Shown: positions 11,035-12,040 of the stretch, piece after piece
Layout: each line of letters opens with the position of its first letter
Position numbering within the stretch: the stretch's first letter is position 1
NCBI GenBank assembly: GCA_026387035.1
Contig: JAPLMM010000197.1
Span: 1 to 33,143, forward strand
Direction of reading: 5' to 3'
Length of the DNA: 33,143 nucleotides
Source of the DNA: Planctomycetota bacterium
GTDB lineage: Bacteria > Planctomycetota > Phycisphaerae > FEN-1346
Made by a program: the position numbers and the translations under genes
Notes under the pieces: generated by a model
Seen by the model: the letters and a program-made list of their open reading frames with translations, nothing else
Databases searched by the model: none
What the model was told of the DNA's origin: nothing

Positions 11035-11063
11035 TTGACAGACCAGAGCGGTTGGCTCATAAT
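11035..11063 (+). promoter_or_regulatory. Strong promoter upstream of the tRNA-Pro relic and GIY-YIG gene
   Basis: TTGACA (11035-11040), 17 bp, CATAAT (11058-11063). It lies 54 bp before the decayed tRNA-Pro, as expected for a former tRNA promoter, and probably now drives the GIY-YIG gene and the downstream tRNA-Pro. Confidence 0.75.
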
Positions 11064-11115
11064 CCAGTCGCGTGGGATGGGAATCCAAGGGGGCTGCCTT
11101 CGGGCGGCCCCACTA

Positions 11116-11144
11116 TCGGGGCGTAGCGCAGTTTGGTTAGCGCG
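11116..11144 (+). repeat. 29-bp direct repeat, left copy (tRNA-Pro 5' half)
   Basis: Identical to 11469-11497. The two copies are 353 bp apart and bracket the GIY-YIG gene. The identity runs from one base before the tRNA through base 26 of the cloverleaf. It reflects either tandem tRNA ancestry or an attachment-site-like duplication. Confidence 0.85.
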
Positions 11145-11166
11145 TCCCGGCGGGAAGGTCGCTGGT
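11117..11166 (+). pseudogene. Decayed tRNA-Pro lacking anticodon loop and 3' end
   Basis: The first 28 nt equal those of the intact tRNA-Pro at 11470: acceptor strand CGGGGCG, TA and the complete D arm. Next comes a different anticodon stem, TCCCG (11145-11149) and CGGGA (11151-11155), with a single G where a seven-base loop should be. AGGTC and the T-stem strand GCTGG plus one T follow, and then the tRNA sequence ends. It therefore looks like a second proline isoacceptor that lost six loop bases and everything after the start of its T loop. The GIY-YIG gene begins 14 bp later. Confidence 0.75.
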
Positions 11167-11179
11167 CAAGAAAGACGCG

Positions 11180-11479
11180 GTGTTTTGGGTATACATCCTC
11201 CGCAGTTTGCGAAACGGGAAACTTTACATCGGGAATACGAACAATCTGGACCGGCGGGTGTGGCAGCACAAGGAGGGGCGGGGAAGCCGATTCACGGACC
11301 AGAACGGGCCGTGGGAACTGGTGTATAAGGAAGAACATCCGGATCGTGTCTCTGCCGTGAGGCGCGAACGGTATCTGAAGAGTGTTGCGGGTTCGCGGGA
11401 GAAGAAGCGGTTAGCCGGCGCGAGGGCAGGCGGTTCAGTCGAACCAAAACTTGACGACGCAAATTCGGTCGGGGCGTAG
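11180..11479 (+). CDS. GIY-YIG nuclease-superfamily protein
   Basis: A 99-aa protein of the small stand-alone GIY-YIG family. The fold is visible: FWVYILRS (first motif), LYIGNTNNLDRRVWQH (YIG and the Arg of the active site), PWELVYKEEH, and RRERYLKS (catalytic Glu and Lys). The usual ~80-residue domain is complete, followed by a ~18-residue tail. The start is GTG at 11180, since the homology begins at once; no strong ribosome-binding site is visible. Its stop codon TAG (11477-11479) is bases 8-10 of the following tRNA-Pro, so gene and tRNA overlap by 10 nt. It lies between a tRNA-Pro relic and an intact tRNA-Pro. The DNA target is unknown; mobility by homing is a hypothesis. Confidence 0.85.
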   Translation: MFWVYILRSLRNGKLYIGNTNNLDRRVWQHKEGRGSRFTDQNGPWELVYKEEHPDRVSAVRRERYLKSVAGSREKKRLAGARAGGSVEPKLDDANSVGA

Positions 11480-11497
11480 CGCAGTTTGGTTAGCGCG
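11469..11497 (+). repeat. 29-bp direct repeat, right copy (inside tRNA-Pro)
   Basis: The right copy of the direct repeat at 11116-11144. It covers the acceptor strand and D arm of the intact tRNA-Pro. Confidence 0.85.
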
Positions 11498-11547
11498 CCT
11501 GCATGGGGTGCAGGAGATCGCTGGTTCGAATCCAGTCGCCCCGACCA
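11470..11547 (+). tRNA. tRNA-Pro(GGG)
   Basis: A complete cloverleaf: acceptor CGGGGCG (11470-11476) with CGCCCCG, discriminator A, encoded CCA (11545-11547). The D arm is GCGC...GCGC. The anticodon stem is CCTGC/GCAGG with loop ATGGGGT, giving anticodon GGG. The T arm is CTGG-TTCGAAT-CCAG. The C1-G72 pair is typical of bacterial tRNA-Pro. The 5' end overlaps the GIY-YIG stop codon. No separate promoter is seen, so it probably depends on the promoter at 11035. Confidence 0.96.
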
Positions 11548-11582
11548 TCTTTCCGCCGCAGGCGGATTAAGGGAACCAAATC

Positions 11583-11765
11583 ATGGTCGCCAAGGAAGCC
11601 GCAAGGCACGTCATCGACGCCATGCCCGACGATGCCAGCATGGACGACATCATTCATGCCCTCTACGTCCGCGCGAAGTTTGAGCACGGCGAGGGCGAGA
11701 TACGTCAAGGCCAAGGCGTGCCGCACGAGGAAGTCCGGCAGAGGCTTCAGAAATGGCTCAAGTAA
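11583..11765 (+). CDS. Small antitoxin of RelE/ParE-type module
   Basis: A 60-aa protein of the short antitoxin group that pairs with RelE/ParE toxins. It shows AIARHVIDAMPDD-like spacing (here AARHVIDAMPDDASMDDIIH), an ALYVRAKFEHG helix, and the C-terminal QGVPHEEVRQRLQKWLK that is conserved in this group and probably binds the toxin. AAGGGA lies ~10 nt upstream of the ATG. It begins 36 bp after the tRNA-Pro and overlaps the toxin gene by 13 bp. Autoregulation of the pair is usual for the family; no operator is evident here. Confidence 0.82.
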   Translation: MVAKEAARHVIDAMPDDASMDDIIHALYVRAKFEHGEGEIRQGQGVPHEEVRQRLQKWLK

Positions 11766-12040
11766 TGTGGGCGCCGGCGGCGCTTGCAGACGTTGAAGCC
11801 ATTGCCCAGTACATTGCCCGGGACTCCGCGGACAACGCGGCCCTTTTCGTCGCCCGGCTTATGGAAGCCACCGACCGCCTCGCCCGCTTTCCGGAATCCG
11901 GCCGCATCCTTCCCGAGATCGGCAACGCAGCATGCCGCGAGGTTATGGTCGCCCCTTATCGCATCATGTACCGCCTCGAAACCGACCAGGTTTGGATAAC
12001 GGGCATCGTTCACGGCGCGCGGAACTGGATGCCGGAATAG
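11753..12040 (+). CDS. RelE/ParE-superfamily toxin
   Basis: A 95-aa protein. MAQVMWAPAALADVEAIAQYIARD is the N-terminal helix pair, followed by ARFPESGRILPE, REVMVAPYRIMYRL and a terminal strand WITGIVHGARNW, the full ParE/RelE fold. The start at 11753 overlaps the antitoxin gene by 13 bp. A second possible start at 11765 would use TAATG stop-start coupling but removes the first conserved strand. Whether it poisons gyrase (ParE-like) or cleaves mRNA (RelE-like) cannot be told from the sequence. Confidence 0.88.
   Translation: MAQVMWAPAALADVEAIAQYIARDSADNAALFVARLMEATDRLARFPESGRILPEIGNAACREVMVAPYRIMYRLETDQVWITGIVHGARNWMPE

Follow-up and report, generated by a model that had tools for sequence, protein, structure and literature searches.

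Why is a small nuclease gene flanked by one truncated and one intact copy of the same tRNA gene? This question is raised by a 33,143-nt stretch of DNA from a Planctomycetota bacterium (the window, meaning the whole stretch analysed). The first-pass annotation of its positions 11116-11547 had described a truncated and an intact tRNA-Pro, a GIY-YIG gene in between and a bracketing 29-bp repeat, and this reading of the layout was correct. The repeat, TCGGGGCGTAGCGCAGTTTGGTTAGCGCG, occurs exactly twice in the whole window, at 11116-11144 and 11469-11497 with 100% identity, and is its sole exact 29-nt repeat. Its second copy forms the 5' half of the intact tRNA-Pro(GGG) (11470-11547; ARAGORN; Rfam RF00005, 63.3 bits), starting one base ahead of it, and its first copy is the 5' arm of a relic tRNA-Pro for which neither ARAGORN nor Rfam RF00005 returned a tRNA call. 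In the relic, the palindrome TCCCGGCGGGA (11145-11155) takes the place of the anticodon arm, and its TCCCG/CGGGA stem encloses a single base instead of a 7-nt loop. Then comes AGGTCGCTGGT (11156-11166), comprising the variable loop and 5' T-stem and ending at the T-loop. After a further 13 nt, the GIY-YIG ORF begins with a GTG start codon (11180-11479, 99 aa), and its TAG stop codon (11477-11479) consists, as had also been noted, of bases 8-10 of the intact tRNA. The module is preceded by a strong sigma-70-type promoter-like site (TTGACA, 17 nt, CATAAT; 11035-11063; 11/12 matches), which is the sole one in the region (shuffles, mean 0.1), and by a leader with the GC hairpin GGGGGCTGCCTTCGGGCGGCCCC (11089-11111); all of these features are on the + strand. 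Given that the promoter-like site precedes all parts of the module, the nuclease gene appears to have been put between the tRNA promoter and the tRNA. Just 3' of the intact tRNA is another palindrome, TCCGCCGCAGGCGGA (11552-11566, no strand assigned), and the same 15-mer stands in for part of a tRNA-Asn copy in locus L072.

The encoded protein belongs to the GIY-YIG superfamily (PF01541, E=5e-18, 65.5 bits versus a cut-off of 22.6). The domain covers residues 7-77 of a 104-residue reading, with a low-confidence tail, and residues Y10, Y21, G23, R31, H35 and E68 are invariant in eight tRNA-linked homologues. Unlike classical homing endonucleases, the 99-aa protein has no additional DNA-binding region beyond the GIY-YIG domain. 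In domain and size it equals the UPF0213/YhbQ-like single-domain proteins (PDB 1zg2, 1ywl; best PDB sequence match, E=4e-10), for which we know of no tRNA-linked module, and the structure-specific nuclease SLX1 is also among its PDB relatives. With dN values of 0.21-0.34 and dS at least 1.5 or saturated, the nuclease is under purifying selection. Matches to PHROG homing endonucleases were weak and partial (E 0.002-0.003 over ~30 residues), and no close relatives were found in viral contigs, phages or plasmids, and a phage or plasmid origin was rejected. An AlphaFold single-sequence model had low confidence (pLDDT 62) and was set aside.

Modules of this kind, in which a GIY-YIG gene is accompanied by an intact tRNA and by a partial copy that has a short palindrome instead of one of its arms, were present in at least 18 genomes and at tRNA genes for Pro, Ile, Ala, Asp, Arg, Val, Asn, His, Lys, Ser or Met. 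The modules at the ten isotypes other than Pro were found in Planctomycetota, and similar ones occurred in Verrucomicrobiota, Babeliales and Patescibacteria records, with a less clear palindrome in the last two. In other genomes, homologues (61-72% identity) shared this construction: L009 and L010 contain relic, GIY-YIG gene and intact tRNA-Pro(CGG) in this order, and L086, from a Phycisphaerae MAG, is mirrored, with intact tRNA-Pro, GIY-YIG gene and a 3' relic. Because homologous modules exist in separate genomes (L009/L081, L010/L082, L086 and L221), chance or an assembly error is unlikely to be the source of the relic layout, including the missing loop bases for which an assembly error had been considered beforehand. 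An 11-nt palindrome always replaces the anticodon arm in the relics of this Pro clade, at the same position in L009, L010, L086 and L221 as in the window (TCCCGGCGGGA twice, TCCCGTTGGGA, TCCCGACGGGA and TCCCTTAGGGA), and all five members have TCCC-N3-GGGA in common. In four Pro modules with tRNAs that are not identical to one another, the relic 5' arm deviated from the local tRNA at 0, 0, 0 and 1 positions, indicating that the arm is local and that palindrome and gene are shared. The truncated tRNA-Pro copy is patterned and not a product of random decay.

These observations bear on one of two ideas put forward in the first-pass annotation, according to which the nuclease gene had invaded a tandem tRNA-Pro pair and destroyed the first copy. 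In this reading, the pair would be old, one copy would have decayed after an insertion, and the nuclease would be a passive passenger. While the direct repeat and the truncated copy in the window are what such a history would leave, it fits poorly with a palindrome of the same kind and length in the same place next to a relic arm that follows the local tRNA of each genome, and with modules at many isotypes and in mirrored layout. We therefore regard it as very improbable.

To find marked tRNA-Pro halves independently of the nuclease, 347 genomes of the class were searched with the pattern GCGTCC-gap-GGAAGGTCGNNGGTTC. Of the three matches, two were intact tRNAs, which conform to such a pattern by nature. 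The remaining match, L221, represented a marked relic not encountered before; a GIY-YIG gene lies ~100 nt downstream of it and is followed by an intact tRNA-Pro. A wider pattern, applied to 392 genomes of the phylum, returned mostly intact tRNAs and unrelated DNA together with four true marked relics. Two of these, which are both from genome G154 and perhaps represent one locus split by the assembly, came with the beginning of a GIY-YIG gene. The other two had no GIY-YIG gene nearby: a palindrome-marked relic beside an intact tRNA-Val (L235, G232:C299) and a relic with two arms replaced beside an intact tRNA-Pro(TGG) (L254, G071:C8), both possibly non-autonomous or emptied modules. The first-pass annotation had named relatives without the nuclease but with the same truncated tRNA as evidence against its reading. 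This applies only in part, as marked relics with no adjacent GIY-YIG gene were found at these two other tRNA genes and in no case at the tRNA-Pro(GGG) locus. It had also proposed a comparison with relatives lacking the gene: same-family genomes do contain tRNA-Pro(GGG) without a GIY-YIG gene, but the surroundings are not syntenic, the neighbours of the window module being absent around the tRNA-Pro loci of relatives.

In extreme cases, marked halves form tandem arrays: L091 has three GIY-YIG genes that lie between pieces of marked tRNA-Asn, and marked 5' halves are repeated as 74-bp units in L091 and as 64-bp units in L011. The 74-bp units, made of the marked tRNA-Asn 5' half, are found both in L091 (G619:C406) and at a contig end of the same genome (G619:C97), and the three tandem genes of L091 come with doubly marked tRNA-Asn 3' halves in an array within which the assembly breaks. 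The Asn-type marked relic was also considered as a common feature of Verrucomicrobiota; a strict pattern matched one of 388 genomes, and Asn-type modules are therefore rare there. In L013, tRNA-Pro occupies positions 1426-1500 and the GIY-YIG gene follows from 1501, its frame starting within a few bases of the tRNA 3' end (CCCCGATGTATG), so that start signal and tRNA end nearly overlap.

The genome from which the window derives contains several such genes. Its 2.55-Mb assembly gave 33 tRNA matches and seven PF01541 matches, one of the latter in a long frame of 483 aa. All five clear short GIY-YIG ORFs lie within ~170 bp of a Pro, Asn, Val, tmRNA or Ala gene and in the same orientation, the tmRNA being confirmed by RF00023, and a sixth, weaker short ORF is 72 nt from a tRNA-SeC call. 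With ~34 tRNA/tmRNA genes, an estimated ~1% of the genome falls within 300 bp of one. Across 138 related GIY-YIG genes, a tRNA or tmRNA was present within 300 bp of 62, in co-directional orientation in 61. The tree of these proteins (72 columns, deep forks unresolved) contains a supported subclade in which 0/39 members have such a neighbour, compared to 62/99 outside it (Fisher p 2e-13), where 37/99 rows likewise have no tRNA within 300 bp. Isotype labels clustered on the tree, requiring 34 changes versus 45.8 after shuffling (0/200 shuffles as low), and the four Pro proteins that were included form a starred clade. The tRNA-free clade of small GIY-YIG proteins includes L012, L016, L122 and L157. 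Small GIY-YIG genes directly downstream of tmRNA were seen in L004, L026, L071, L075, L076, L079, L124 and L166; on the tree, several of them group with genes linked to tRNA-Ala, the 3' end of which is the same as that of tmRNA.

Co-directional linkage and the apparent tRNA promoter, together with SLX1 among the structural relatives, would also suit a domesticated host function, whereby co-transcription with tRNAs would serve expression and the nuclease would act on tRNA, DNA structures or phage DNA in defence or repair. However, GIY-YIG presence is patchy (30/61 relatives; 100/294 genomes in the phylum), single genomes carry several copies at different tRNAs, and partial tRNA duplications mark the borders. 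A role as a defence system was further examined with PADLOC, which gave no defence-system match. Overall, we consider a host function unlikely.

A nuclease that acts on tRNA genes is known from phages: SegB of phage T6 is a GIY-YIG homing endonuclease whose cleavage peaks lie within tRNA genes, with the motif RAWTSGAAC enriched at its cleavage sites (23/83), with recombination-dependent tandem amplification of tRNA segments, and with linkage to tRNAs in many phages (PMC13096335). The reverse complement of this motif occurs once in the window, at 11524-11532 (+ strand), which is the T-loop GTTCGAATC of the intact tRNA-Pro. In an automatic count over the modules, 13 of 32 GIY-facing tRNA edges were within 3 nt of the T-loop C, compared to ~3.2 expected (p 5e-6); several edges came from one locus and are not fully independent, and the count missed the window's own relic, which does end at the T-loop. 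Because phage integrases also use T-loops, such edges alone are no proof of SegB-like cutting.

Integrating elements classically enter genomes at tRNA genes and as a rule depend on a recombinase, and duplications from the T-loop to the 3' end resemble integrase attachment sites. The module could then be the remnant of a larger integrase-driven island with the tRNA gene as attachment site, and tRNA-integrated islands likewise show direct repeats of tRNA halves with one tRNA kept intact. In the window, however, as in the modules read by eye, the borders enclose the GIY-YIG ORF only, with no tyrosine or serine recombinase or integrase inside, and duplication affects both 5' and 3' halves. This origin appears very improbable to us.

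Taken together, recurrence, linkage and T-loop edges favour the other of the two earlier ideas, namely that the nuclease would cut tRNA genes for its own spread. We consider it fairly probable that the window contains a chromosomal, SegB-like, tRNA-homing nuclease module, and the module is probably a compact selfish element, in which the gene for a single-domain GIY-YIG endonuclease is nested within a tRNA gene. The nuclease would cut tRNA genes of its preferred isotype, probably in the T-loop as SegB does, and repair of the break by recombination, with tRNA sequence as homology arm, would copy the nuclease gene beside the tRNA. The outcome would be one intact tRNA and a partial copy, so that the host keeps a working tRNA, and the nuclease gene, downstream of the apparent tRNA promoter, would be co-transcribed with it. 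Since the intact tRNA retains the supposed cut site, self-cutting must somehow be avoided.

How the palindromes enter the modules is a separate matter. The inner edges of partial tRNA copies coincided with palindromes in 31 of 53 cases compared to 3.3 expected (19 loci; edges of one locus are non-independent), and these edges fall at tRNA arm boundaries, around positions 27/28 and 45/46 and in the T-loop. Two palindromes are also dispersed in many genomes of the phylum, with 5-110 copies of TCCCGA-N6-TCGGGA and 16-149 copies of TCCGCC-N3-GGCGGA in six GIY-rich genomes and none for the reversed-pattern control, and with 0 and 5 copies, respectively, in the window's own genome (control 0 and 1). 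This dispersal would be expected if the palindromes were independent repeats, REP-like or similar to Rickettsia palindromic elements, that invade redundant tRNA copies, with the GIY-YIG gene only causing or tolerating the duplication. The same is suggested by genome G232, in which TCCGCC palindromes occur 294 times and no GIY-YIG match reaches E<=1e-5, and by the two marked relics L235 and L254 with no adjacent GIY-YIG gene. Owing to these relics, the palindrome may not be part of the element but a REP-like invader in its own right that enters spare tRNA copies. In contrast, the position at arm boundaries and the conservation of TCCC-N3-GGGA throughout the Pro clade connect the palindromes to the modules, as does the location of 9 of the 12 TCCCGA-N4-TCGGGA copies of G619 (Verrucomicrobiota) within tRNA-Asn arrays; seven of these belong to the GIY-YIG array and two to the contig end with the same repeat. 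In addition, GIY-YIG genes were found in 13/17 palindrome-rich versus 87/277 other genomes (p 3e-4, 294 genomes), a link that is not strict. We view independent palindromes as a serious possibility, somewhat short of even chances. The fuller version of the nuclease-driven reading, a minimal one-gene element made of a GIY-YIG nuclease and its own palindrome, is put forward tentatively and is on the doubtful side: it would swap a tRNA arm, an ssDNA hairpin, for the palindrome, use tRNA halves as portable homology arms and spread between distant bacteria via their most conserved genes, with the tRNA not being killed.

Relics were also considered as structured RNAs. Folding energies of five relics were ordinary (z -1.0 to +0.8; intact tRNA -2.3), which leaves selection on an RNA fold unsupported and gives no obvious answer to the arm replacement. 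In the phylum sample, G232, G254 and G191 carry 178-294 copies of TCCGCC-N3-GGCGGA per ~2-2.5-Mb genome in a REP-like manner. REPs with TnpA-REP (RAYT) are similar in that short dispersed palindromes accompany a small nuclease-type gene, but RAYT is a Y1/HUH enzyme whereas the window protein is a GIY-YIG nuclease, and to our knowledge REPs are not known to replace tRNA arms.

The modules share with free-standing SegB of T-even phages the linkage of a GIY-YIG gene to tRNA genes and the lack of restriction to one isotype overall, and the T-loop is matched by the motif enriched for SegB (PMC13096335). SegB differs in being phage-borne and in having a C-terminal part past the catalytic domain (PMC13096335). 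The genes described here are chromosomal, single-domain and ~90-110 aa in length, come with palindrome-marked partial tRNAs and form isotype-clustered clades, and their products are putative tRNA gene cutters. In the literature searched (open-licence papers), chromosomal one-gene modules with palindrome-marked tRNA halves were not described, and only the SegB paper (PMC13096335) bears on them. As such, tRNA-linked GIY-YIG homing nucleases are already known from phages. In several phyla, a single gene of ~100 codons appears to reside at tRNA and tmRNA genes with an isotype preference and to leave recognisable palindrome-marked tRNA halves behind. If it moves, it would be among the very small elements that target tRNA genes and would correspond, in bacteria, to the SegB system of phages. 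This would explain many small GIY-YIG genes without an assigned role, as well as many of the truncated tRNAs seen in metagenome assemblies.

The 3' flank of the intact tRNA-Pro (11583-12040, + strand) contains a 60-aa ORF that matches no family and, after it, a gene for a ParE/RelE-type toxin (PF05016, E=6e-19), which together likely constitute a toxin-antitoxin pair.
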